Below are positions 22,551-37,063 of a stretch of 49,103 bases of DNA, in pieces. The notes beneath the pieces are model-generated. The model did not search any database. It had not been told where the DNA came from and was given only the letters and a program-made list of their open reading frames with translations. The translations under genes were made by a program, and so were the position numbers. This DNA is from Chloroflexota bacterium. GTDB lineage: Bacteria > Chloroflexota > Dehalococcoidia > UBA1151 > TMED-70. The stretch covers positions 1 to 49,103 of the forward strand of contig PBHA01000004.1 in NCBI GenBank assembly GCA_002719425.1. The letters are read 5' to 3'. Position 1 is the first letter of the stretch, and the number at the start of each line of letters is the position of its first letter.

Positions 22551-23231
22551 CTAGCTTAATTGCCCATCTTCATAAAGTTTCAATAAACTTTGTATTTCTT
22601 TGAAATTAAGGTTCTTATAATTATTTATAATATCATCTTCATTAAATGGTTCATTAATATGAGTGTCATAAGATTCATAGATAATTCCAATTTTATTGAA
22701 AATATCCTTAAATGGACTTAAGAAATTATCCACTGAGACTTGAATTTGGCTGTTTGTAGGAGTTGCTCTTTCTAATCCATAAGGGCTCATTACTTCAGCG
22801 TAATTTTCACCTGAATTAAGTTTATCTGAATCTTCATTTTTATCTATTCTTGATAATAATACTTCAAGATATTTTACCAAAGTTCCTGCTAGTTCTAAAA
22901 TATCTTCTGTAGAGTCATCGTCACCAAAATCTAGATTTGAAATTTTTTCTGAAAGATTTTCATGAAACTTAATAAAATCCTGATAACCAAAAGGTTCCTT
23001 ATATTCTGTTCCATATTTCATTTCTGTATCTAAAATTTTTGAATATTGATTAAGTTCAAAATATTCAGGTCTTATATCTCTACCAGATTCTTTAGCTTCA
23101 ATAATTAATTCATTAAATTCTTTAGGACTAATACCTAATTTTTTCATTAGTTCAGGTTGAGTTGGGAATATACCAGCTCTATTTAAGCCGATTCTCATAT
23201 ATCTATGTAGTTTATTGATTAGGTCTGACAT
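22551..23231 (-). CDS. Protein of unknown function with an HTH-like N-terminus
   Basis: A 226-residue acidic cytosolic protein. Residues about 20-48 (IFPTQPELMKKLGISPKEFNELIIEAKE) look like a helix-turn-helix, while the rest is acidic and mostly helical, with no membrane segment, signal or catalytic motif I recognise. It starts 33 bases after the FAH-family gene ends and is probably co-transcribed with it. It might be a regulator or adaptor; no function is assigned. Confidence 0.6.
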   Translation of the reverse strand: MSDLINKLHRYMRIGLNRAGIFPTQPELMKKLGISPKEFNELIIEAKESGRDIRPEYFELNQYSKILDTEMKYGTEYKEPFGYQDFIKFHENLSEKISNLDFGDDDSTEDILELAGTLVKYLEVLLSRIDKNEDSDKLNSGENYAEVMSPYGLERATPTNSQIQVSVDNFLSPFKDIFNKIGIIYESYDTHINEPFNEDDIINNYKNLNFKEIQSLLKLYEDGQLS

Positions 23232-24174: not shown

Positions 24175-26142
24175 TTGGTTGAATCACAAAAAAAATTACG
24201 AGATATAAAGTTAAATTCTATTTCTCATCCTCTAGACCCCCTCAATATAGAAGAAATTAATAAGGCAACATTCATAGTAAAAAACAAATCTGAACTAGGG
24301 GATCATTTACTTTTTGAAACAATTACACTTATTGAACCTCCGAAAAATCAAGTATTAAGCTTCAGTTTAGGAGATGAGATCAAAAGGAAAGCCCTTGTGG
24401 TTGCACTAAATTATAAAGAAGAAAAACTCTACGAATTAGACATAGATATTAGTAATGAAAAAATCCTTCGGTGTGAGTATAAACCTGGTGTTCAACCAGC
24501 GTTTATATTTGGTGATTTAGATATGGATTTTAATGAATGGGAAACAAAAATGAAGCATGATCCATTAGTAGTAGATGCACTTAAAAAAAGAGGAATAACT
24601 AATCCTGATCTACTGCAATTAGATCCTTGGCCTATTGCAAATTTTGGGAAAAAGGAAGAAGAGGGTAAAAGACTTGCTATTGGTCGATGTTGGATAAGAA
24701 GAGAACCTGGCGATAATGCCTATGCACGACCTGTTGAAGGCTTATCTATCATTCTTGATCTAAATAAAAATAAGGTGGTTGAAATCCAAGATTTTGGAAC
24801 GGTACCTATTCCACCAAATGATGGAAACTATTCACAAAAATATCAAAAAGAATTTAGAAAAGATCTAAAGCCTATTGAAATAACTCAACCAGAGGGCCCG
24901 AGCTTTGAAGTAAAAGGTCATGAAGTAAAATGGCAAAAATGGAATTTAAGAGTAGGTTTTACCAAAAGAGAAGGGCTTGTTATACATAATGTTTCTTATG
25001 AAGATGATGGAAAATTGAGACCTATAATATATAGAGCTTCTCTTTCTGAGATGATAGTTCCTTATGGTGATCCTACAAATGATCATTATAAAAAACAAGT
25101 TTTTGATTCTGGTGAAGTTGGAATTGGGAAGTGCGCAAACTCATTAGAATTAGGCTGTGATTGTCTTGGTGAAATATACTATTTTGATGCATCATTATTT
25201 GATATTAGAGGTGAATCTCAGATTATAAAAAATGCAATTTGTATGCATGAAGAAGATTATGGGATTTTGTGGAAACACACGGATACTAGAACTGGAGAAG
25301 TAGAGACTAGAAGATCAAGAAGATTAGTTATCTCTTCTATCGTAACAGTTGGAAATTATGAATATGGTTTCTTCTGGTATTTTTATCAGGATGGTGGAAT
25401 TGAGTATGAAGTAAAGCTCACAGGCATAGTTAATTCTGCAGCAGTAGCTCCTGGAGTAAAACCTAAACACGGAACACTAGTAGCTCCTCAGGTGGTTGCT
25501 CATAATCATCAACATTTTTTTAATGTTCGCTTAGACATGATGGTTGATGGTACAGAAAATTCTGTTTATGAAGTTGATACAATTTTAGATCCTATAGGAC
25601 ATGAAAATCCACATGGTAATGCTTTTTCTACGAAGAAAACTTTGATAGAAAAAGAAGGAGATGGGGTAAGGACAATAGATCCTTTTGCAGCGAGATATTG
25701 GACAATTATTAACTCTAACAAGAAAAATTATATGAATGAGCCTGTTGGTTATACAATTTCTCCAGGGGAAAATGTTTTACCATTTAGTCATTCAGACTCT
25801 GTAGTTAATAAAAGGGCAGGATTTATGAACGGACATCTTTGGGTAACTCAATTTAATGAAAAAGAACTATATGCTTCGGGTGATTATCCACAACAACATT
25901 CTGGAGGAGACGGATTACCAAAATGGGTAAAGTCAAACAGAGATATAAAAGATAAAGATTTAGTAGTTTGGTACACATTAGGTCATAATCATATTCCAAG
26001 ACTTGAAGATTGGCCAGTTATGCCAGTTGCTTATATAGGATTTAGAATTAAGCCATCTGGATTTTTTGATAGAAATCCTGCATTAGATGTTCCTCCTTCA
26101 ACAAACCATTCTTGTGAAACAACTTGCGAATGTTGTAAATAA
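24175..26142 (+). CDS. Copper amine oxidase (primary-amine oxidase), topaquinone type
   Basis: Oxidises primary amines to aldehydes, releasing ammonia and H2O2. The 655 residues include the catalytic-base aspartate D299 in EMIVPYGDP, ANSLELGCDCLG, MHEEDYGILWKHTD, the topaquinone tyrosine Y395 in TVGNYEYGFFWY, copper histidines H445 and H447 in HNHQHFF, and the third in GHNHIPRLEDWPVMP. The order is that of the Arthrobacter enzyme. The start is TTG 24175, six bases after GAGGGG. There is no signal peptide, so it seems cytosolic. The C-terminus ends in a cysteine-rich CETTCECCK, not a catalytic element I know. Confidence 0.96.
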   Translation: MVESQKKLRDIKLNSISHPLDPLNIEEINKATFIVKNKSELGDHLLFETITLIEPPKNQVLSFSLGDEIKRKALVVALNYKEEKLYELDIDISNEKILRCEYKPGVQPAFIFGDLDMDFNEWETKMKHDPLVVDALKKRGITNPDLLQLDPWPIANFGKKEEEGKRLAIGRCWIRREPGDNAYARPVEGLSIILDLNKNKVVEIQDFGTVPIPPNDGNYSQKYQKEFRKDLKPIEITQPEGPSFEVKGHEVKWQKWNLRVGFTKREGLVIHNVSYEDDGKLRPIIYRASLSEMIVPYGDPTNDHYKKQVFDSGEVGIGKCANSLELGCDCLGEIYYFDASLFDIRGESQIIKNAICMHEEDYGILWKHTDTRTGEVETRRSRRLVISSIVTVGNYEYGFFWYFYQDGGIEYEVKLTGIVNSAAVAPGVKPKHGTLVAPQVVAHNHQHFFNVRLDMMVDGTENSVYEVDTILDPIGHENPHGNAFSTKKTLIEKEGDGVRTIDPFAARYWTIINSNKKNYMNEPVGYTISPGENVLPFSHSDSVVNKRAGFMNGHLWVTQFNEKELYASGDYPQQHSGGDGLPKWVKSNRDIKDKDLVVWYTLGHNHIPRLEDWPVMPVAYIGFRIKPSGFFDRNPALDVPPSTNHSCETTCECCK

Positions 26143-26151
26143 AGAGTTTGA

Positions 26152-27249
26152 TTAATCGACTTTTTTTGATTTGACTGTAAATTTTGAAAGTAAATTCTTG
26201 TCAGGTGTAGGAAGTTTATCTAGAGGCTCAAAAATGTAGGGAGACTTGAATTTATTTTCGGGTTTACATAGGTCATTTCTATAGAATCTTTCTGAAGGAA
26301 ATAAATCTCCTGGGTATGTGAAATTATCAAGCGTTGCTAAAGCTATACAAATACTAGCACCAAGCGCACTTTCTAACATTCCACCAACCCAAACAGGTAT
26401 CCCTGAATCTTCTGCCAACTTGTTAATGGCTAATGAATTTGTTAATCCTCCCACTCTTCCAGGTTTAATATTTATATACTTGCAAGCATTTATTTGTATA
26501 GCTTGTTTAGCTCTTTCAACGCTGTTAATAGATTCATCTAAACAAATCGGAGTGTTTATTGTTGAAGATAGTTTTGAGTGGTCAATTAGGTCATCTGAGG
26601 ATAAGGGTTGTTCAATGAATGCTAAATTATATTTATCTATAGATTTGAAGAAATCAAGATCATCTAGTGAATAACCTCCATTACAATCTACATGAAAAAT
26701 TGAATTAGGGTAGGAATTGTAAACTGCATCTAAAACCTCTGAATCCCAACCTTTTTTTATTTTTAGTTTTATTCTAGGTGTATTCTTATCTACAGCTAAT
26801 TGAATTTTTTCCAATAATGTATCGATGTCTTTTTCTACTCCAAAATCAGCACCTGCTATAACCTCTTTTCTTGTTCCTCCTAATAATTCATGAAGTGGAG
26901 TTTTAGTTATTTCACTCTGTAAATTCCACCAAGCAATGTCTATTCCTGCTTTGGCAAATGGATTACCTTTGTAAATTGATAATTCTTGGTTAATATCCTC
27001 AGATGAATCAAACTCTTTTCCTGCTATCTTCGGTGCAAATGTTTCAGATATATTATAAAAAATAGAATTTGCACTTTCATATGAATAGGTTGGTAGTTCT
27101 AGTGCACAAGTCTCTGACCAAGCATTAGCATTTTCACCAATTATATTAATCAAAATTGAATGAATCTCATAATCAGCTCCATATGAGGTTATCCACGGAT
27201 CAATTAGAGGCATTGCAACATGATAGATGTTTAATTCATTTATTTTCAT
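26152..27249 (-). CDS. Enolase-superfamily protein, o-succinylbenzoate synthase / N-acylamino acid racemase (OSBS/NSAR) type
   Basis: A 365-residue muconate-lactonising-subgroup enzyme. The two catalytic lysines are present, K163 (LKIK) and K262 in INIKPGRVGG, and the metal ligands D188, E213 and D238. These numbers are nearly those of the Amycolatopsis racemase (K163, D189, E214, D239, K263). It is the last gene of an eight-gene minus-strand operon and no other menaquinone genes are present, so racemisation or epimerisation of an N-acyl amino acid is more likely than menaquinone synthesis. The M20 amidohydrolase at 4 kb would be a logical partner, though unlinked. Confidence 0.9.
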   Translation of the reverse strand: MKINELNIYHVAMPLIDPWITSYGADYEIHSILINIIGENANAWSETCALELPTYSYESANSIFYNISETFAPKIAGKEFDSSEDINQELSIYKGNPFAKAGIDIAWWNLQSEITKTPLHELLGGTRKEVIAGADFGVEKDIDTLLEKIQLAVDKNTPRIKLKIKKGWDSEVLDAVYNSYPNSIFHVDCNGGYSLDDLDFFKSIDKYNLAFIEQPLSSDDLIDHSKLSSTINTPICLDESINSVERAKQAIQINACKYINIKPGRVGGLTNSLAINKLAEDSGIPVWVGGMLESALGASICIALATLDNFTYPGDLFPSERFYRNDLCKPENKFKSPYIFEPLDKLPTPDKNLLSKFTVKSKKVD

Positions 27250-27274: not shown

Positions 27275-28402
27275 TTATCTTAGACCAACACTCCCATCAT
27301 TGGCTATAGGAGGGGGTATGTTAGCTGGATCAAAAGGATGCACTGTGGGAGCTTTATTGTTAAAATTAACTCCAAGACCAGGTTTTTCTGAAGGAGTATA
27401 CCATCCATTTTCTAATTTTATAATCTCGTCTGTCATGTCTCGTCTTGGAGAAATATCCTCTTGTAATGATTCCTGAAGATCCCAAGAAGGTGAAGAAGTA
27501 CCTAAGGCTATGCAAGCAGCAGTTGCTATTGGCCCTTGAAAATTATGAGGACAAATCTTTATATGATTAGCTTCAGCAATTGTTGCAATTTTTTTAACTC
27601 CAGTAATACCACCAGCAACAGCAATATCTGGTTTGAAAAACGCAGGTTTGGCTAGTTGAGCATACTCTCTAAATTCCCATATTCCCATATTTCTTTCACC
27701 CACAGCAAGAGGTAATTTTATTTTTGAAGAAACATCAGCCATTGCGACAACTGAGTCAGGTACGATTGGATCTTCTATGAAATAAGGTCTAAATTTTGCT
27801 ACTTCCTCACAAAAAGCTACAGCTTCATGAGGTTGCATATTTCGATGTATTTCTATACCAATATCGAAATCCCATCCTACTGTATCCCTCACAGCTTCTA
27901 CCATTTCCAAAGCAAGTCCAATTAATTTTGTGTAAGTTAATTCTGCCCAATTATGAGGCATAGGTGTAAATTTTAGTGCTGTAAAACCTTGTTCTAGCAC
28001 TTTTTTAGCACCTGAAGCACATTCTTCTGGTGTATCACCACCTACTCCAAGTGCGATAGCTCTTATTTTATGTCTGACCTTTCCTCCCAAAAGATTCCAT
28101 ACAGGAGTTTGAAGTCTTTTTCCTTTTATATCCCATAATGCCATATCAATGGCACTTATTGCTCCTCCAATACTATTTCCTCTAAAAGCAGAGTTATATC
28201 TCCACAAATAATTCCAAATATGCTCTATATCATCTGAATCCATTCCTATCAGCGCATCAGAAAAAGAATGGATAGTTGCTTCAGCTGCTTTAGGATAAGA
28301 CCAATAACAAGATTCTCCAATTCCTTCTATACCATCCTCTGTGGTAACCTTAGCTACTAAAAACCGCGATACAAAAAAGGTTTCAATTTTAGCTATTTTC
28401 AT
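27275..28402 (-). CDS. Enolase-superfamily sugar-acid dehydratase, galactonate-dehydratase-like
   Basis: A 375-residue mandelate-racemase-subgroup protein. The capping domain (1-120) has GIGESCYW and IDMALWDIKGK; the barrel supplies metal ligands E184 (IEIHRN), E210 (FIEDP) and E236 (VGERN), and bases H186 and H286 (CPHNFQGP). An E-x-H in place of the D-x-H of D-galactonate dehydratase at the first ligand is a conservative difference. It probably dehydrates a six- or five-carbon aldonate to a 2-keto-3-deoxy acid. The gap to the Gfo/Idh gene is 18 bases and the operon continues both ways. Confidence 0.88.
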   Translation of the reverse strand: MKIAKIETFFVSRFLVAKVTTEDGIEGIGESCYWSYPKAAEATIHSFSDALIGMDSDDIEHIWNYLWRYNSAFRGNSIGGAISAIDMALWDIKGKRLQTPVWNLLGGKVRHKIRAIALGVGGDTPEECASGAKKVLEQGFTALKFTPMPHNWAELTYTKLIGLALEMVEAVRDTVGWDFDIGIEIHRNMQPHEAVAFCEEVAKFRPYFIEDPIVPDSVVAMADVSSKIKLPLAVGERNMGIWEFREYAQLAKPAFFKPDIAVAGGITGVKKIATIAEANHIKICPHNFQGPIATAACIALGTSSPSWDLQESLQEDISPRRDMTDEIIKLENGWYTPSEKPGLGVNFNNKAPTVHPFDPANIPPPIANDGSVGLR

Positions 28403-28420: not shown

Positions 28421-29671
28421 CTAGATATTCCAATATTCATTTATACTTGTTTCATAAACAGAGGTTGATTCATTCTCAATTTCTTCAATTTTTACAGGTC
28501 TACCCAAAACAGAAGATTCCAAAGCTGCATTACAAACTGCCAAATCTTTTCTTCCAACATAGGCATCAACTTCAGGTTTAGTACCATCGGTGATACATTG
28601 TCCTAACTCATAATACTCCAAAGCCACTAGAAATCTATCTGCATCTTCGAAAGGTATATTGTACGAAGAAATTCTTTCTGATCCAAATAAACGGGATGTT
28701 AGTTCATCTAAGTGAAAATCTGGTACTAGGTCTATTACTTCTTTTCCTTTGATCTCTCCTAATCCGTCAATGTTTATTGAGAGAGAATCACCTCTTCTTT
28801 GTTTTGCAGGTTTCATAGAGCCCTTACTTCCATAAATCATAGAATAATCTAATGGTTCACCATGAGCTGCCCAAAATGAAGTCCATTGTCCAATAGCTCC
28901 ATTTTTATATTTCAGCGTAGAGATAACCATATCTTCTGATGATGCTTTTATTTTTTCAGGAACTTCATCAGCCCAGTGGTCATAGAAATTAGAAACTCCT
29001 ATTTTATCTCCTCTATACCTTATTGGTTCCCAAATTTTCGATACAGCAAATACTTCTTCTATATCACCTAAATAATACATCATTTGATCTACAGCATGTA
29101 CACCTGCATCCACAAAAATTCCACCAACATTTTTATAGTGTCTCCAAGGCCAAATTATAATATCATTTCCACCTCTAGCAGATCCAAGAATGAAGCTATA
29201 TGGATCCCCAATAATCCCTGCATCGATAATAGCTTTATTCAATCTGCAAATAGGATCTCTTCTCTCTTGCTCGCCGACACTGAGAACTTTTCCACTTTTT
29301 TTCCAAGCCTCTATGACTTTATTGCATCCTTTTATGGTCAAAGACAATGGTTTTTCACACAAAACGTTATATTCTAACTCAAAAGCTTTTTGAGCAATTA
29401 AATGATGAGATCCCGAATCGGTTGTTATGTCAACAGCTTCTATTTCAGGCATAGAAGATTTCATTTCATCTAAAGAGGTAAAAATTTTTGGACGTTTCCC
29501 CAGTATTTCATACGCATTATCTGCAAGGTAGATTGCGTTCTCTTTTCTTTTGTCGCAAACTGCAACTAACTCTACATTAGCCATACCACTTTCATATAAG
29601 GCACCTAATGCTCTTAGGTGCCTTCCACCCATTCCTCCCGCACCTATTATTGCTATTGGTATTTTAATCAT
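28421..29671 (-). CDS. Gfo/Idh/MocA family oxidoreductase
   Basis: NAD(P)-dependent sugar or inositol dehydrogenase of 416 residues. The N-terminal Rossmann motif is IGAGGMGGRHL (9-19), the cofactor/catalytic EKP is in NVLCEKPLS (about 92-100), and the D-x-x-x-H pair appears in VDAGVHAVDQM. Members oxidise hydroxyl groups of sugars or act as isomerases and hydrolases. It sits inside the sugar-acid operon, 36 bases from the next gene upstream. A perfect hairpin in its own coding region is listed separately. Confidence 0.9.
   Translation of the reverse strand: MIKIPIAIIGAGGMGGRHLRALGALYESGMANVELVAVCDKRKENAIYLADNAYEILGKRPKIFTSLDEMKSSMPEIEAVDITTDSGSHHLIAQKAFELEYNVLCEKPLSLTIKGCNKVIEAWKKSGKVLSVGEQERRDPICRLNKAIIDAGIIGDPYSFILGSARGGNDIIIWPWRHYKNVGGIFVDAGVHAVDQMMYYLGDIEEVFAVSKIWEPIRYRGDKIGVSNFYDHWADEVPEKIKASSEDMVISTLKYKNGAIGQWTSFWAAHGEPLDYSMIYGSKGSMKPAKQRRGDSLSINIDGLGEIKGKEVIDLVPDFHLDELTSRLFGSERISSYNIPFEDADRFLVALEYYELGQCITDGTKPEVDAYVGRKDLAVCNAALESSVLGRPVKIEEIENESTSVYETSINEYWNI
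29598..29624 (-). repeat. Perfect 11-bp hairpin inside the start of the Gfo/Idh gene
   Basis: AAGGCACCTAA and TTAGGTGCCTT flank a five-base loop, in codons 16-25 of the oxidoreductase. In the mRNA this would fold about 48 bases after the start codon. Nothing in the protein motif requires this symmetry. Confidence 0.7.
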
Positions 29672-29707: not shown

Positions 29708-30886
29708 TTAATTTTTGGATATTTTTTCCCACTCAGGATCAGGATTAGATTGTATGAAATCATGATTTAATTCATATCCTAAACCAGGTTTGTTATTAAG
29801 ATATAGAAAGCCATCTTTAATATCTAATGGTTCAGTTATAACATTATTATAATTTTCTAATGAATGATCAGTCATTTCTAACCTATAAATATTTGGAACA
29901 TTCATTAAAACATGAGCGCCACTAATTACGTTGAATGCTCCAGATGCATCATGGGGACTTATAGGAATATAAAAAGTTTCAGCCAAAGTAGCTATTCGTT
30001 TCATTTCAGAAATTCCTCCTGTCCAGCAAATGTCTGGCATTATGTAATTTACTAATCCTTCCTGCAGATATGGAGCAAAATCCCACCTAGTATATTTTCT
30101 TTCTCCAATGCAAAGATTTATATCTGTATTTTTTCTTAGTTGTCTGTGAGCATCAATACTTTCAGGTTGAAGAGGTTCCTCAAACCAAATCAAATTATGT
30201 TTTTTCATTCTATTACATAGCTCTGTTGCTGTTGAAACATCAAAATTTCCATGTGCATCAATCATGAGCTCTATCGAAGGACCAATGGCTTTTCTAATTT
30301 CACTCATTAGATCATCTGCGTAAGAAGCTCCTTCATCTGAAATTTTACCGTCAATATATCTTCTATGATGTTTTTTCATTTCTGGCATAAATGGATCAAG
30401 TTTAAGAGCTTTATATCCTAAATTTACCTGTCTAACTGCATCAGACACTGCAGTTTCAATTTTATCTAAAAACCCAACGTGTGAATAAACTGGGATCTTT
30501 TCTCTAACTTTTCCACCTAGCAAGTCCCAAACTGGTCTGTTTAAGGCTTTCCCCTTAATATCCCATAGAGCCATATCAATTCCACTTGCTAAAGTCGTAG
30601 CAAAACCTCTTGAACCCAGTGTTCCAAATCTTCTATAAATTTTATGCCAAATATAGTCAATATTAGAAGGATCTTCTCCAATTAAACCTTCAGAAAAATC
30701 CTGTCCTTCAAGATCGTTTTTCATCATATTATAAGTATGAGCTAAAACTAAAGCCCCTCCTCCACCAGAATTAGTGGATTCTCCTGTACCAGTTATACCT
30801 TCATCTGTATCAATTTCAACGAATAACCATGATCTTGTACTATTTTTAGGTCTAGTTAAGTATACCCTTAGATCTGTTATTTTCAT
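29708..30886 (-). CDS. Enolase-superfamily sugar-acid dehydratase, D-galactonate/gluconate-dehydratase-like
   Basis: A 392-residue mandelate-racemase-subgroup protein with GTGEST (33-38), IDMALWDIKGK (103-113), metal ligands D210, E236 and E262, the D-x-H catalytic His H212 (IDAHGNF), and H312 in SPHDASGA. The D-x-H and the C-terminal His resemble D-galactonate dehydratase more than L-fuconate dehydratase, which uses a KxK. Expected chemistry is removal of water from an aldonate to a 2-keto-3-deoxy acid. The specificity is unresolved. It lies 21 bases from the upstream SDR gene in the same operon. Confidence 0.9.
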   Translation of the reverse strand: MKITDLRVYLTRPKNSTRSWLFVEIDTDEGITGTGESTNSGGGGALVLAHTYNMMKNDLEGQDFSEGLIGEDPSNIDYIWHKIYRRFGTLGSRGFATTLASGIDMALWDIKGKALNRPVWDLLGGKVREKIPVYSHVGFLDKIETAVSDAVRQVNLGYKALKLDPFMPEMKKHHRRYIDGKISDEGASYADDLMSEIRKAIGPSIELMIDAHGNFDVSTATELCNRMKKHNLIWFEEPLQPESIDAHRQLRKNTDINLCIGERKYTRWDFAPYLQEGLVNYIMPDICWTGGISEMKRIATLAETFYIPISPHDASGAFNVISGAHVLMNVPNIYRLEMTDHSLENYNNVITEPLDIKDGFLYLNNKPGLGYELNHDFIQSNPDPEWEKISKN

Positions 30887-30907: not shown

Positions 30908-31696
30908 CTAATCATGTATTTTCTGTGATGCTATCATTCCTCCATCAACTAATAAAGTTTCACCATTTACATATTGTCCAAGATGTGAAGAAAGATATAG
31001 CACAGCATTAGCTATATCACTTGGTAAACCACCTATTCCTGCAGGTACGAACCGCTTGAAGTCCTTTGGATCATGAGGTGGACCGTCAATTGATTCATCA
31101 TTGATGTCAGGAAGTCTATTTGAAATAGCTCCTGGTGCTATACAATTTGCTGTAATATTTTTTCCAGCTAAATCTGCTGCAATTCCTTTTACCATTCTTC
31201 TCAGAGCCATTTTCGCTGTACCATATGCTGTCCAATTAGGCATTGCAACGTAAGAATGGACACTTGAAAGACATATTATTCTACCCCCATCACCACTATT
31301 TATCATTTCTTTTGCAGCTCTTTGTGAGCAGAAAAAATATCCTTTCAATGATAAATCCATCATCCGATCCCAATATTCTTCGTCTGTTTCAAAAAAAGGT
31401 CTTTGTTGATCAGGAAAAATGGCATTATTTATCAAAATATCTATTTTTTTATGAGACTCTATAAATGAATCAAACACAAACTTGATCTCGTCTAATTTAC
31501 TAACATCACCTTTATGAAAAGTTGCATTTACACCATTCTTAGAAACGATATTCACACACTTTTGTGAAACTTCATCATCCACAATATCATTTAATCCTAC
31601 GTCAGCTCCTTCTTTTGCTAATGTAATAGCTATCCCTCTTCCTATTCCTTTTCTTGCTCCTGTAATTAATACTTTTTTCCCATCAAGTAAACCCAT
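30908..31696 (-). CDS. Short-chain dehydrogenase/reductase in the sugar-acid operon
   Basis: A 262-residue SDR with TGARKGIG (12-19), catalytic Ser in ICLSSV and YGTAK (YxxxK), and a C-terminal VNGETLLVDGG. A good ribosome site (AAGGAG) precedes the ATG. The family includes aldose 1-dehydrogenases and 2-keto-3-deoxy-sugar-acid 4-dehydrogenases; either fits the neighbours. It lies between an enolase member and the deiodinase-like gene. Confidence 0.9.
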   Translation of the reverse strand: MGLLDGKKVLITGARKGIGRGIAITLAKEGADVGLNDIVDDEVSQKCVNIVSKNGVNATFHKGDVSKLDEIKFVFDSFIESHKKIDILINNAIFPDQQRPFFETDEEYWDRMMDLSLKGYFFCSQRAAKEMINSGDGGRIICLSSVHSYVAMPNWTAYGTAKMALRRMVKGIAADLAGKNITANCIAPGAISNRLPDINDESIDGPPHDPKDFKRFVPAGIGGLPSDIANAVLYLSSHLGQYVNGETLLVDGGMIASQKIHD

Positions 31697-31714: not shown

Positions 31715-32380
31715 TTATGTTTTTGATGAAATGTTTTCTAAAGGTAGTTTTTCTATGTTTGGAATTAAAGTTTTCTCTTCTGCAATTCCAACAATTAATA
31801 ATAGATAAGGTCTTTCATTTTTTGAGCGATTAAAAATTTTATTCATAAATCCCATTGGAGAGGGAGTATGAGTTAAAGTTGACAACCCTGACATATGTAA
31901 TGCCGTTATAAGTATACCTGTTGCTATACCAACAGATTCTTTAGCATAATAATGCTTAACCTTTTTACCATTTTTAGTTATGCTGTAATTTTTTGCGAAT
32001 ATACCTATAACATATGGAGCATCTTCCAAAAAAGGTTTGTTAGCATCCGTTCCCAATGGTTCTAGAGCTTCTAACCAATCTTTGGGAGCCTTTTCATCAT
32101 AAAATTTTTTTTCTTCTAATTCAGCTTCTTTTCTTAACAATTTTCTAAGATCATTCCTAGTTGATATTGAAAAATGCCATGGTTGCATATTTGCTCCACT
32201 AGGGGCTGTTCCTGCAGCTTTTATACAATTTTCAATCACAGATATTGAGAAAGTTTTTTTTGAAAATTCTCTTATAGTTTTTCTTTGTTTTATATTTTCA
32301 TAAAAATGCTTAGATTTTGAGACTATATTATCTAAATCTAAGTTTGGATTTCCATCATATTCTATAAATTTTTTTTTCAT
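31715..32380 (-). CDS. Nitroreductase-superfamily protein, iodotyrosine deiodinase (IYD)-like
   Basis: FMN flavoprotein of 221 residues with the RKTIREF start (33-39), TAPSGANMQPW (58-68) and HYYAKESVGIATGILITAL (143-161). It matches human iodotyrosine deiodinase better than generic nitroreductases, including the C-terminal IPNIEKLPLENI. The three residues that hold the zwitterion of halotyrosine, Glu157, Tyr161 and Lys182 in the human enzyme (spacings 4 and 21), are here E90, Y94 and K115 with identical spacings. Expected reaction: reductive removal of iodide, bromide or chloride from halotyrosine. Location in a sugar operon is unexpected. Confidence 0.88.
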   Translation of the reverse strand: MKKKFIEYDGNPNLDLDNIVSKSKHFYENIKQRKTIREFSKKTFSISVIENCIKAAGTAPSGANMQPWHFSISTRNDLRKLLRKEAELEEKKFYDEKAPKDWLEALEPLGTDANKPFLEDAPYVIGIFAKNYSITKNGKKVKHYYAKESVGIATGILITALHMSGLSTLTHTPSPMGFMNKIFNRSKNERPYLLLIVGIAEEKTLIPNIEKLPLENISSKT

Positions 32381-32393
32381 TTTTTATATCTTC

Positions 32394-32741
32394 TTAGTAA
32401 TAATTTTTAGTATCAAATATTTTTTCGGTTAATTCCCAATATCTTGGTCGTCCTGTCTCAAGTTCTTCAAATAAATTTCCCATAATTTCCTGCCATTCCT
32501 TTACTTGATCATTCATTGGTTCTATATGAATCCCATCAGCTAGATCAAAATCTTTATCCACCTCTAAAAGCATTACTAGTTTATTTTGATAATTATAAAT
32601 TCTCATTCTTCCAATAGGTTTTTTTTCTAAATCCTTAACTATTTCAGGAAATGGATTATCATGATATTCGATATATTTTTTTATCTTTTCATTATCATTT
32701 TTGAGTTCGTTTATTAGAACCAATAATTTTTTATTTTTCAT
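32394..32741 (-). CDS. rhaM: L-rhamnose mutarotase-like protein
   Basis: A 115-residue dimeric ferredoxin-fold protein that interconverts alpha and beta anomers of a deoxysugar. The family pattern is visible: EYHDNPFPEIVKDL (24-37), an Arg-Tyr strand near GRMRIYN (44-50), and the C-terminal block with MNDQVKEWQEIM and RYWELTEKIFD. Sixteen bases separate it from the SMP-30 gene upstream. Mutarotases of this family act on L-rhamnose, L-fucose or similar; the substrate here is not determined. Confidence 0.82.
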   Translation of the reverse strand: MKNKKLLVLINELKNDNEKIKKYIEYHDNPFPEIVKDLEKKPIGRMRIYNYQNKLVMLLEVDKDFDLADGIHIEPMNDQVKEWQEIMGNLFEELETGRPRYWELTEKIFDTKNYY

Positions 32742-32757
32742 AATTCTCTTCTATAAA

Positions 32758-33657
32758 CTAAAGATTCGTTTTATACTCAGGTTTACCTTGAATATCAAGT
32801 TTTACTCTGAACAAATCTCCTCCTCTGTATGCTTTGTGATCATAGTTTTTTGGTTCACTTCCAATTGGATTTTCACCCGTTCCAGAACTTGCGGTTGTAA
32901 CGTAAAGTTCATTTAGGTTTTCTCCTCCAAACATAGGACAAGATGTTTGGGTAGCTGGGAAATAAATTTCTCTTTCAAGTTTTCCGTCTGGATCAAATCT
33001 CATTACTTTAGAACTAAACCAAATCGCTGACCAAATAAATCCTTCTGAATCTACTGTCATTCCATCTACTATTCCTACGTCATCATTATCTAGTTTTACA
33101 AAAATGCTTTTATTAGAAATTGATTTAGTTTTTGAATTATAATCCCACTTATAAATTGTTTTTCTGAGTGAATCTGTACTATAAAAAATAGTTTCATCAG
33201 GAGAAAATCCCATACCATTACATAATTTTACTCCTTCATCAATTACATCTATTGAGTGATCTGGATTAATTCTAAAAACTACATCACTTTGCCAATCAGT
33301 TGCATCTGTGCCACAGTAAAAACTTCCGTCAGGTCCAGAAATTGCATCATTAACTCTTATTTTTGTATTTGTTCCTTCAATTAGACCTTCTTTTATAATT
33401 TTAAAATCATCATCAGATTTCCATAATATAATCCCCTCCCATGATCCAAGAATTAAGCCTCCTGATCGATTAAATCTAAATCCACCTACTTGTACACCTT
33501 TATGTATGGTTTCATTCGTTCCTTTTAGAGGATCATATTTGAATAATTTCCCTCCATAAATATCAGTCCAATATATTTTTTTTTCTTCAGAATTCCAAAC
33601 AGGGCCTTCACCGACTACAGCGTTAGGGGATGCTAATTTTTCTATATGATATTCCAC
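32758..33657 (-). CDS. SMP-30/gluconolactonase family lactonase
   Basis: Six-bladed propeller metalloenzyme of 299 residues that hydrolyses aldonolactones. The metal ligands are E17 in GEGPVW, the asparagine in RVNDAISGPDG (about residue 103) and the aspartate in IVDGMTVD (about 197); LCNGMGFSPD is also typical. It is the first gene of the eight-gene operon reading to 26152 and diverges from an SDR gene 91 bases away. With an aldose dehydrogenase upstream, it would turn the lactone into an aldonate for the dehydratases downstream. Confidence 0.92.
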   Translation of the reverse strand: MEYHIEKLASPNAVVGEGPVWNSEEKKIYWTDIYGGKLFKYDPLKGTNETIHKGVQVGGFRFNRSGGLILGSWEGIILWKSDDDFKIIKEGLIEGTNTKIRVNDAISGPDGSFYCGTDATDWQSDVVFRINPDHSIDVIDEGVKLCNGMGFSPDETIFYSTDSLRKTIYKWDYNSKTKSISNKSIFVKLDNDDVGIVDGMTVDSEGFIWSAIWFSSKVMRFDPDGKLEREIYFPATQTSCPMFGGENLNELYVTTASSGTGENPIGSEPKNYDHKAYRGGDLFRVKLDIQGKPEYKTNL

Positions 33658-33748
33658 AATACACCTTTACTCCAATATGGAACTTATAATATCACCTGAA
33701 ATATAAATCGTGTATACTTTTTGGAGAAGAAACTTAGAAAGGTTTAAC

Positions 33749-34546
33749 ATGCTTGATCATAATGGAAAAGTTGCAATAGTGACAGGGGGAGCCCAAGGAA
33801 TTGGAAGAGGAATAACTGATGTCCTCTCACATGATGGAGCAATCTTGTGTATTGCTGATATTTCAAAAGAGCATGGTAATCAAGCAGTAATTGATTTAGA
33901 AGCATTAGGACGAAAGGCTATTTTTATAGAAGCTGATTTTAGAAAATCAGAATCATCAAATAAGGTAGTTGAGGAATGCATAGATAGACTTGGAAGATTA
34001 GACATTCTAGTTAATAACGTTGGAATTCAGCCCCCTGCATCATATAAAAATGTTGAAGATACTACTGAAGATATGTGGGATGCAGTAATAAATGTAAACT
34101 TAAAAAGCTATTTCTTAATGAGTAAATATTCAATTCCATATATGAAAAAATCAGGAAAAGGGGTAATTATTAATATTTCCAGTGTGCAGGGATTACAATC
34201 TCAAAAACTAGTACCTCCTTATGCTGCAAGTAAAGGTGGAGTTCTGTCTTTAACTAGACAAATGTCACTTGATTATATAAAAAGTAATATCAGAATTAAT
34301 GCTATAAATCCCGGAACATTTAACACTCCAATGGTTAGAACTTCAATAACAGGTGATATTGAAGAAAGTATGCAATTATTTGGTAAAGATATTCCTATAG
34401 GTAGAGTAGGGGATCCAAAAGAAATTGGATATGTCGCATCTTTTCTAGCAAGCGACAGAGCTTCATTTATTTCTGGAGAATATGTGAATGTGGATGGTGG
34501 TATTATGGCAAAAGGTGGTTGGGATGCAGATCTACAAGGAGAATAA
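33749..34546 (+). CDS. Short-chain dehydrogenase/reductase, divergent from the lactonase gene
   Basis: A 265-residue SDR: TGGAQGIG (12-19), NNVG, Ser in INISSV, YAASK (YxxxK) and VNVDGG. Starting at ATG 33749 rather than an upstream in-frame codon gives AGAAAGG (33736-33742) six bases before it and the family N-terminus LDHNGKVAIVTGG. Position next to the lactonase suggests an aldose dehydrogenase (for example L-rhamnose or L-fucose 1-dehydrogenase), but SDR specificity cannot be read by eye. Its stop is one base from the convergent epimerase-like gene. Confidence 0.9.
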   Translation: MLDHNGKVAIVTGGAQGIGRGITDVLSHDGAILCIADISKEHGNQAVIDLEALGRKAIFIEADFRKSESSNKVVEECIDRLGRLDILVNNVGIQPPASYKNVEDTTEDMWDAVINVNLKSYFLMSKYSIPYMKKSGKGVIINISSVQGLQSQKLVPPYAASKGGVLSLTRQMSLDYIKSNIRINAINPGTFNTPMVRTSITGDIEESMQLFGKDIPIGRVGDPKEIGYVASFLASDRASFISGEYVNVDGGIMAKGGWDADLQGE

Positions 34547-34547
34547 A

Positions 34548-35621
34548 TTATCTGAAAGGATTTTTTCTTTCTTCTTCTTTATAATCTAAAATTACACCTG
34601 CTTTCATATGCGCAGAGATTGTTTCTCCGGCTCTAACACAATAAGCTGAACCATTTTTTTCAGCCTGTTCAACTCCTCCGTTATGCCATCCTGTGCAAGG
34701 CTCTAGCCCTGCGTTATAACACCTTCCGTACCATGGATATCCATATCCTCCTCCAAAATTTCTCCAGTACCAAATATATCTAAATAAATCCTTAGGAAAC
34801 TCAACACCCCATGCAATTTGTAGTTCATTATTTTTTACTACATACCATCCTTCTTCCAGTTCAGTGAAGTAAGCCATATCTAATGATCGGTCAGATTTTC
34901 CTGGTATATTTCTAAAATCTGATTGTGATCCATCCTTCAGATCAACCATAGGCCATTTTCCTGAAAAATTAGGTTTTAATTTGGAAGATTTATCCACATC
35001 TTCTGGATGGGAAAGTATCTTGCAATTAGGAAGAGTTAGGGTGCATTTTTCGGATAAAAATGAACCTCCGATAGCTATATGTTCTAGCCATACAATATCT
35101 AATTCTTGCTCAGCATAATTTGTAACATTTTGGTCAATCTCAAGAAATGAATCGTCAGCTCTAAGGGAAATTGTTCTTGTGATTTCAAATGGGCTTCTTA
35201 CGCTCCTTCCAGTAAATTCAATAGTACAAATTTCTGGAGAATCAGTGATAATTTTTGTATCCCATGGAATATTATTTACATCCCCATGTATTCCAAAATC
35301 AGCACCAAAATATTCACTTGGATATCCTCCGTGAGGTACAACTGTTTGCCATCCTCCTTCATAATAATCAAGCCAAACAGAAGCTGGATCTCCTGTTGAA
35401 GGTACTGTGTAACTAGGGTTTCTTATTCCCCATGGAGTTTTGAACATAAATTCAGTATCAGTAGGTTTATAGACAAAACTTGAAATATCTGCACCTTTAT
35501 CAGAAATAATCAAAACTCTAATTTTTTTATTTTCTAAAATTACAGTTTTTAATCCCCTGTAATGCCAAGCATCTGAAACTCTTACTCCCTCAGATCTTTC
35601 TTGTTGATAGTTTGTACCCAT
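34548..35621 (-). CDS. Aldose 1-epimerase-like protein (DUF4432-type)
   Basis: A 357-residue beta-sandwich protein that belongs, in my judgement, to the galactose-mutarotase-like superfamily. Visible elements are KGADISSFVYKPTDTEFMFKTPWG (about 42-65), a conserved His in VWLEHIAIGG, and LEPCTGWHNGGVEQA near the end with the acidic residue expected of the family. DUF4432 proteins often lie in sugar-acid or deoxysugar operons. Whether it is an active epimerase, a mutarotase or a binding protein is open. Confidence 0.8.
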   Translation of the reverse strand: MGTNYQQERSEGVRVSDAWHYRGLKTVILENKKIRVLIISDKGADISSFVYKPTDTEFMFKTPWGIRNPSYTVPSTGDPASVWLDYYEGGWQTVVPHGGYPSEYFGADFGIHGDVNNIPWDTKIITDSPEICTIEFTGRSVRSPFEITRTISLRADDSFLEIDQNVTNYAEQELDIVWLEHIAIGGSFLSEKCTLTLPNCKILSHPEDVDKSSKLKPNFSGKWPMVDLKDGSQSDFRNIPGKSDRSLDMAYFTELEEGWYVVKNNELQIAWGVEFPKDLFRYIWYWRNFGGGYGYPWYGRCYNAGLEPCTGWHNGGVEQAEKNGSAYCVRAGETISAHMKAGVILDYKEEERKNPFR

Positions 35622-35737
35622 ATTTAATCCTTGAAATTAATAGTTATTTAGAAATATTATATGTGAATTATTTATATGATAAATTTTTAAAATTTAGTAT
35701 CTTTATTTTATATTTAGCTACAAAAGTCAGGTTTAAT

Positions 35738-37063
35738 ATGAATGATATAAATAATTCAAAAAAACTTTATACAAAGGCCAAAAAATACATAGCTGGTGGA
35801 ATTTCCTCGCAAATAAGAGCTTTAGAGCATTCAGAAGTTCCTCTTTTTATACAAAATGCTAAAGGATCAAAGATTTGGGATGTTGATGGTAATGAATACA
35901 TTGATTATATTCAAGGAATGGGTCCAAATATTTTCGGTCATGCACCCGATTTTATAAATCAAAGAGTCTCTAAAGAAATTAAGAATGGCATGGTTTATGC
36001 TGCGCAATTTGATAAAGAAATTGAGGTGGCTGAAAAATCATTAGAAATTCTAAATGTTAGAGATTGGACTGTTAGATTTGCATCTAGTGGAACAGAAATC
36101 GATCAGCTTCTGATTAGATTGATGAGAGGTTATACCAACAGACAATTATTTGTAAAATTTGAAGGACATTACCATGGTTGGATGGATTCAATAAACTATT
36201 CTGTACATCCAGATTTAGAATTAGCAGGAGATAATTCTTCACCAGAGGCTGTTCCTGAATCTAAAGGAATGGATGAAAATACTAAAAATAGTGTGATAAT
36301 TGCTAGATGGAATGATATAGATCACCTAAAAGAAATTTTTCAGAAATATGGTGATGAAATTGCCGGTGTTCTTATGGAGCCAATCCTAGCTAATACTAAT
36401 TGTATAATTCCAGATAAAGGATATATACAATCTGTAAAAAAACTTTGCCATGATAACGGATCTCTAATGGCTTTCGACGAAGTTATAACAGGATTTAGGA
36501 TTTTGAAAGGAAGTGCAAAAGAATATTTTGGTGTAACTCCTGACTTAGCAACTTTTGCAAAATCCTTTGCAGGAGGATTTCCAATCGCTATGCTAGCGGG
36601 TAAAAGAGAAATAATGAATTTTATTGGTGATGGTACCGTATATCATGGAGGTAGCTTCAACTCCAACGTTGCTTCTATTGCAGCTGCAAATGCATCTCTA
36701 GACGAAATGATAAAGGGTAAAAATTTTTTTTATAATTTAGAAAAAAAGGGTCAAAAATTAATTCAAGGTATCAAAGATCTTTCTGATGATTTGGATATAG
36801 ATATTCATGCACAAGGACTAGGTTCAGTTTTTTCAATTTCCTTCACTGAAAAGGAACATATAAGAGACTGGAGAGATCATTTTAGAAACTGTGACGAGAA
36901 TAAATATAAGTCATTTTGTGAAATAGCATTTAAAAAAGGAATAAGACTATCATCAAATGGGAGGGTACACCTTTCTACTTCTCATACGGAAAATGATATA
37001 GAAAAAACTTTAGAAATGTTTAAACTCTCATTAATTGAACTTAAACAAAAATTAGCAGGATAG
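35738..37063 (+). CDS. Class III aminotransferase, glutamate-1-semialdehyde 2,1-aminomutase-like
   Basis: PLP enzyme of 441 residues: ASSGTEID (116-122) for the phosphate, FEGHYHGW (141-148), D247 in MAFDEVITGFR and the Schiff-base K275 in TFAKSFAGGFPIA. ATG 35738 follows CAGG at 35728-35731; an upstream frame extension encodes a poor, hydrophobic N-terminus and is not used. In this setting it may be an amino-sugar or beta-amino-acid transaminase, not a haem-synthesis enzyme, as no other tetrapyrrole genes are here. Its end overlaps the convergent enolase-type gene by 12 bases. Confidence 0.88.
   Translation: MNDINNSKKLYTKAKKYIAGGISSQIRALEHSEVPLFIQNAKGSKIWDVDGNEYIDYIQGMGPNIFGHAPDFINQRVSKEIKNGMVYAAQFDKEIEVAEKSLEILNVRDWTVRFASSGTEIDQLLIRLMRGYTNRQLFVKFEGHYHGWMDSINYSVHPDLELAGDNSSPEAVPESKGMDENTKNSVIIARWNDIDHLKEIFQKYGDEIAGVLMEPILANTNCIIPDKGYIQSVKKLCHDNGSLMAFDEVITGFRILKGSAKEYFGVTPDLATFAKSFAGGFPIAMLAGKREIMNFIGDGTVYHGGSFNSNVASIAAANASLDEMIKGKNFFYNLEKKGQKLIQGIKDLSDDLDIDIHAQGLGSVFSISFTEKEHIRDWRDHFRNCDENKYKSFCEIAFKKGIRLSSNGRVHLSTSHTENDIEKTLEMFKLSLIELKQKLAG

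Follow-up and report, generated by a model that had tools for sequence, protein, structure and literature searches.

An iodotyrosine deiodinase homologue with a complete predicted halotyrosine-binding triad, encoded within a SAR202 sugar-acid operon

We analyzed a 49,103-nucleotide contig of a Chloroflexota bacterium (PBHA01000004.1, assembly GCA_002719425.1; hereafter the window), focusing on an open reading frame (ORF) at 31715..32380 on the minus strand that starts with ATG and encodes a 221-amino-acid flavoprotein. This protein is most likely a soluble, flavin mononucleotide (FMN)-dependent reductive dehalogenase of the iodotyrosine deiodinase (IYD) family that would serve in the salvage or detoxification of halotyrosines, its gene having, on the simplest reading, been inserted into a sugar-acid operon of the SAR202 lineage. 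An original prediction, made from the DNA letters, had given the ORF these exact coordinates without naming a strand, and had read the product as IYD-like across its length; sequence, fold and phylogeny all uphold that identity and separate the protein from generic nitroreductases. Its chemistry, substrate and role, together with the shared transcript and the direction of insertion proposed below, are matters that we infer.

Family assignment and binding triad

Pfam searches returned Nitroreductase (PF00881, 64.9 bits) as the sole family above its cut-off, and no NCBIfam model reached its own cut-off for the protein. In a sequence search of the PDB, the top six matches were all IYDs, at 202.5 to 79.8 bits: the Haliscomenobacter hydrossis enzyme (HhIYD; 5ko7, 202.5 bits, E 5.9e-59), human 4ttb (128.7 bits; E 2.4e-36 for the human IYD match), two mouse forms, a human mutant and 6pz0 (79.8 bits). 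The next chain, BluB-like 3eo8, scored 35.7 bits, so that in sequence the protein resembles solved IYDs more than it does other chains of the nitroreductase superfamily. Structural alignments with HhIYD and the human and mouse enzymes indicated the IYD fold, and the protein carries both the TAPSGA loop and the THTPSPM motif. By these matches, which go well past anything that chance would give, it is a member of the known IYD family, and an ordinary-looking bacterial one.

The predicted halotyrosine-binding triad consists of E90 (codon GAA, 32111..32113), Y94 (TAT, 32099..32101) and K115 (AAA, 32036..32038), all on the minus strand, whose human counterparts we take to be Glu157, Tyr161 and Lys182. 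Gap-free alignment with the human, mouse and Haliscomenobacter enzymes bore out the earlier claim of a complete E-x3-Y-x20-K pattern, and the three residues were invariant in 25 aligned relatives. They were likewise present in 111/111 locus homologues (counted after removal of 20 duplicate loci), in 119/119 proteins from a first homologue search and in 120/120 from a second search started from a different IYD, giving 350/350 rows across sets that were picked by similarity, include near-copies and are not an unbiased sample. The original prediction also stated that generic nitroreductases lack this lid; of eight nitroreductases from three related genomes (G002, G004 and G496), none had the triad complete. 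Single triad letters matched in four of the eight, at the Y94 column in L170, L172 and L177 and at the E90 column in L171, where the alignment is uncertain. Outside this set of eight, the non-IYD matches were L175 and the weak matches L183 and L184 (G004 contig 41).

Halotyrosine binding in IYDs closes a lid over FMN, and the reduced flavin then removes the halogen in one-electron steps. By analogy with these characterized enzymes, E90, Y94 and K115 would hold the zwitterion of the halotyrosine as the lid closes over FMN, the phenolate would sit close to the backbone of A63, and electron transfer from reduced FMN would remove the halogen to yield tyrosine and halide. Dehalogenation of tyrosine is, on this analogy, probably what the protein catalyzes; bromo- or chlorotyrosine is a plausible candidate substrate, and salvage of tyrosine or detoxification of halotyrosines, which may derive from marine organic matter, is the role that fits best.

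Phylogenetic position

The predicted placement within the IYD clade held in one respect and not in another. In a quick maximum-likelihood search over 137 rows, the IYDs, including the query protein, stood apart from the eight nitroreductases at 98% in the Shimodaira–Hasegawa-like approximate likelihood-ratio test (SH-aLRT), the outgroup branches being very long. A second quick tree of 54 rows, midpoint-rooted, split the IYD family itself in two at 99% SH-aLRT, separating the query from the HhIYD and mammalian enzymes. One side holds HhIYD, the human and mouse proteins, L097 and a group (set A) whose nine organism-named records are all Acidimicrobiia or Actinomycetota; the query's side holds Chloroflexota, Gemmatimonadota, Planctomycetota, Verrucomicrobiota, Balneolota, Pseudomonadota and others. 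Sharp differences between the query side and set A fall at eight positions. Asparagine occupies position 64 in 227/230 query-clade rows, where the other set has histidine in 121/121 rows, as do the three solved IYDs, and F93, directly before Y94 of the triad, is found in 228/230 rows against N or S. Because HhIYD is nearly equal in mean identity to the two clades (54.4% to the query's, 53.9% to its own), and because the three solved IYDs agree with the query side at positions 125 and 157, the split is mild, albeit supported in the tree. L097 itself, encoded in a genome of the same class (G218), groups with the other clade and scores 256 bits against HhIYD and 189 against the mouse enzyme; both IYD clades therefore occur in this class.

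Genomic context and distribution

The IYD gene sits in a minus-strand run whose first gene encodes an SMP-30/gluconolactonase-like lactonase (SGL; 32758..33657, PF08450), followed by a rhaM-like mutarotase (32394..32741, PF05336) that lies directly upstream of the IYD gene across a 13-base gap. Directly downstream, 18 bases away, is a short-chain dehydrogenase (SDRa; 30908..31696), and the same strand continues with an enolase-superfamily protein of the mandelate racemase/galactonate dehydratase-like kind (29708..30886), a Gfo/Idh/MocA oxidoreductase (28421..29671), a second enolase-superfamily, dehydratase-like protein (27275..28402) and a third enolase-superfamily protein (26152..27249). The four measured gaps from SGL to the first enolase-superfamily gene span 13-21 bases. 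Divergent from the operon, a second short-chain dehydrogenase (SDRb; 33710..34546, plus strand) occupies the same place in the related genomes G496, G495, G497, G499 and G020.

Several other genes of the window lie nearby. A 655-amino-acid copper amine oxidase (24175-26142, plus strand; PF01179, 557.7 bits) adjoins the operon and also occurs in G496, which has the IYD gene, and in G495 and G497, which have the operon without it. A class III aminotransferase (35612-37063, plus strand) scored best, below cut-off, against the GntE and glutamate-1-semialdehyde aminomutase models. The 226-residue product of 22551-23231 (minus strand) had no Pfam match and is 80% identical in G496 and 60% identical in G495.

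Relatives were selected for comparison by the Gfo/Idh/MocA gene, found at E 1e-90 or better in 29/247 genomes including G496. G496, which belongs to the same order as G001-G003, matched the window in 16 ORFs across 16 kb (80-98% identity) and carries the same operon, in which an 86% identical IYD holds the corresponding position. From this match, and from the SAR202 loci in G001-G003, the window probably comes from SAR202 (Chloroflexota). Among the other 28 genomes, the surroundings were read in seven, of which four have the operon without IYD and three (G486, G254 and G462) keep only part of its genes, with no IYD beside them. The operon of G495 and G497 lacks both the IYD gene and the first enolase-superfamily gene, and its mutarotase gene leads straight to the dehydrogenase gene across gaps of 17 and 18 bases. 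In G499 and G020 the mutarotase, too, is missing from that place along with the IYD, and the dehydrogenase comes next after the lactonase. The IYD gene is kept with the operon in G496 and absent from it in G495, G497, G499 and G020, none of which belongs to the 36 genomes of the order listed with an IYD match at E 1e-30 or better. The simplest reading is that the lineage shared by the window and G496 gained the IYD gene by insertion into a working SAR202 operon, with the mutarotase gene on one side and the dehydrogenase gene on the other; loss elsewhere is the alternative. The gene would probably share the operon's transcript but not its pathway.

Elsewhere, the IYD gene occupies other positions. 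In G390 a 75% identical IYD adjoins a homologue of window gene 11994, in G498 and G207 a 62-63% identical IYD lies in another location common to both, and in nine genomes a 60-67% identical IYD has two neighbors, a divergent gene of the enolase superfamily and an amidase-like one. At these nine SAR202 loci (L001-L003 and L100-L105, in G001-G003 and G588-G593), the divergent pairing is a well-conserved arrangement, with the enolase-superfamily partner 25-28% identical to those of the window and the amidase-like kind judged from sequence. Across 111 loci, many covering only ~1.5 kb per side and some stopping at a contig end, the window's mutarotase, lactonase and dehydrogenase stood beside IYD in just one, that of G496; two others had a dehydrogenase-like stretch of 29-31% identity, and nine had an enolase-superfamily paralogue of 25-28% identity.

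The original prediction had described a dehalogenase among sugar-acid genes as an unfamiliar arrangement; the comparisons do not support taking it as an informative one. According to a study on SAR202 (PMC10444878), the clade typically carries such sugar-acid genes, so the neighborhood is an expected one, and four related genomes carry the operon without IYD. An operon context of this sort is usual in the clade and does not inform on function.

A protein search that scored the candidates sharing most words with the query found at least 8000 relatives, all 8000 scored candidates passing, and at least 585 were confirmed when a single genome from each species was scanned. IYD matches at E 1e-30 or better occurred in 13/393 genomes of the class of G002 and in 36/250 of the order of G390, sets for which genome completeness is not given, making absences uncertain. 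Some relatives in JGI records are named iodotyrosine deiodinase; those SAR202 and Chloroflexota records that bear a name call the protein nitroreductase only. A search of open-licence papers turned up none that deals with IYD in SAR202 or with an IYD gene next to sugar-acid genes. The IYD gene is under purifying selection, with a ratio of nonsynonymous to synonymous substitution rates (dN/dS) of 0.108 in a comparison of 11 genes ranging from 0.022 to 0.143.

Weighing the alternatives

A number of observations weigh against a halotyrosine dehalogenase. HhIYD and the mammalian IYDs lie across the 99% split from the query, and the three solved IYDs differ from the usual residue of the query's clade at positions 64, 69, 93, 196 and 209; with the two groups separate, halotyrosine activity is predicted from a sister clade and not from within the clade, of which we know no characterized member. 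The lid is also the block of lowest confidence in the predicted model (predicted local distance difference test, pLDDT, of 74 for residues 101-110 and 66 for 111-120), and of the 11 genes compared only one has a higher dN/dS than the IYD gene. No recurring partner gene emerged across phyla among the Pfam families listed. Of 80 IYD loci, 40 had a close same-strand ORF upstream, 32 downstream and 23 neither; among the first 25 of 92 matched Pfam families, from 63 of 70 neighbor ORFs that were pooled, though unrelated, into a single alignment (the other seven being near-copies of the same alphaproteobacterial gene), the commonest were alpha/beta hydrolases, in 3/63. BLAST clustering recovered the IYD ORF in 67/80 loci, shadow ORFs masking 13. 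Finally, 4-hydroxyphenylpyruvate dioxygenase exceeded its cut-off in 0/250 genomes of the order (153/250 gave weak matches below it, at best 65.3 bits against 277), in a search that placed only 1/14 control genomes above the cut-off; the product tyrosine is therefore not expected to enter the homogentisate route. Breakdown of tyrosine by that route, the only one looked at, is accordingly not supported.

As an observation apart, eight marine alphaproteobacterial single-cell genomes (L031, L033, L037, L051, L060, L062, L071 and L073) share one fixed IYD neighborhood, with a rhodanese-like gene upstream and phosphoribosyltransferase-like and transport-like genes downstream, as judged from sequence starts.

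The clade split raises the question of whether the query's clade is a functional offshoot that kept the amino-acid-binding lid but reduces another tyrosine-like substrate, such as a tyrosine with a nitro group or some other substituent on the ring, or a halogenated aromatic amino acid that is not halotyrosine. The 99% separation, the contrasts at N64 and F93, and the spread of relatives over many phyla with no recurring neighbors among the families listed would all fit such an offshoot. We nevertheless consider it improbable, as HhIYD shows the same degree of identity to its own clade and to the query's and has the latter's residue at 125 and 157, and as the triad and 43 other columns are more than 97% conserved over 354 rows; the more distant 6pz0, which is not among the rows of the tree, is also named an IYD, and the function may predate the split. 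A related proposal, which we think unlikely on balance, is that this large clade, present in many bacterial phyla, forms a functionally distinct IYD branch whose signature residues are N64, H69 and F93 and whose natural substrate is some ring-substituted tyrosine, though not iodotyrosine. If that were true, aromatic amino acids would commonly be dehalogenated, or reduced in a related way, by flavin-dependent enzymes as marine organic matter turns over.

It is very unlikely that the protein is a generic nitroreductase or flavin reductase with the triad as a family relic: the Pfam and NCBIfam results taken alone would allow it, but solved IYDs scored 202.5-79.8 bits against 35.7 or less for any other solved chain listed, and the triad, present in every homologue row, was complete in none of the eight nitroreductases. 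We give scarcely any credence to the enzyme being a redox step of the surrounding sugar-acid pathway, which its tight same-strand spacing (13 and 18 bases) and the gene order kept in G496 might suggest, since four related genomes have the operon without IYD in it, the other SAR202 IYD genes examined lie elsewhere, and the lid residues suit an amino acid, not a sugar acid. The four empty sites and the absence of the same neighbors at 110/111 loci, many of them covering only ~1.5 kb per side, likewise disfavor a functional tie to the operon, and the empty sites warn against inferring IYD function from it.

Collectively, the analysis soundly identifies a known family of enzymes in a clade whose annotation is poor: a SAR202 and Chloroflexota protein called only nitroreductase in named records is homologous to IYD and has the binding triad in full. 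Organohalide respiration is known in the class of the query organism. If active as proposed, the IYD homologue would give an abundant ocean lineage a flavin-dependent halotyrosine route apart from that process.

Comparison with known systems

BluB (2isj) and BluB-like proteins are remote from the query, which scored 35.7 bits to 3eo8 and 34.9 bits against the curated BluB model TIGR02476, below its cut-off of 150. The work on non-phosphorylative fucose and rhamnose catabolism in SAR202 (PMC10444878) has, in its main text, 0 occurrences of nitroreductase, dehalogen- or tyrosine. HhIYD (5ko7, 5ko8, 5krd) resembles the query in fold, triad, TAPSGA loop and THTPSPM, at 42-43% identity in structural alignments, but has H, T and S where the query has N64, H69 and F93, and falls on the other side of the 99% split. 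The human and mouse enzymes (4ttc, 3tnz, 3gfd) share ~34% identity over nearly the whole chain including the lid, with the same triad, but belong to the other clade, and their solved constructs run to 259-265 amino acids against 221. Mammalian IYD has a membrane anchor and acts in thyroid iodide salvage. The more distant 6pz0, presumably the Thermotoga enzyme, is a 192-amino-acid chain bound to FMN and L-tyrosine that matches the query at 79.8 bits and 32% identity.
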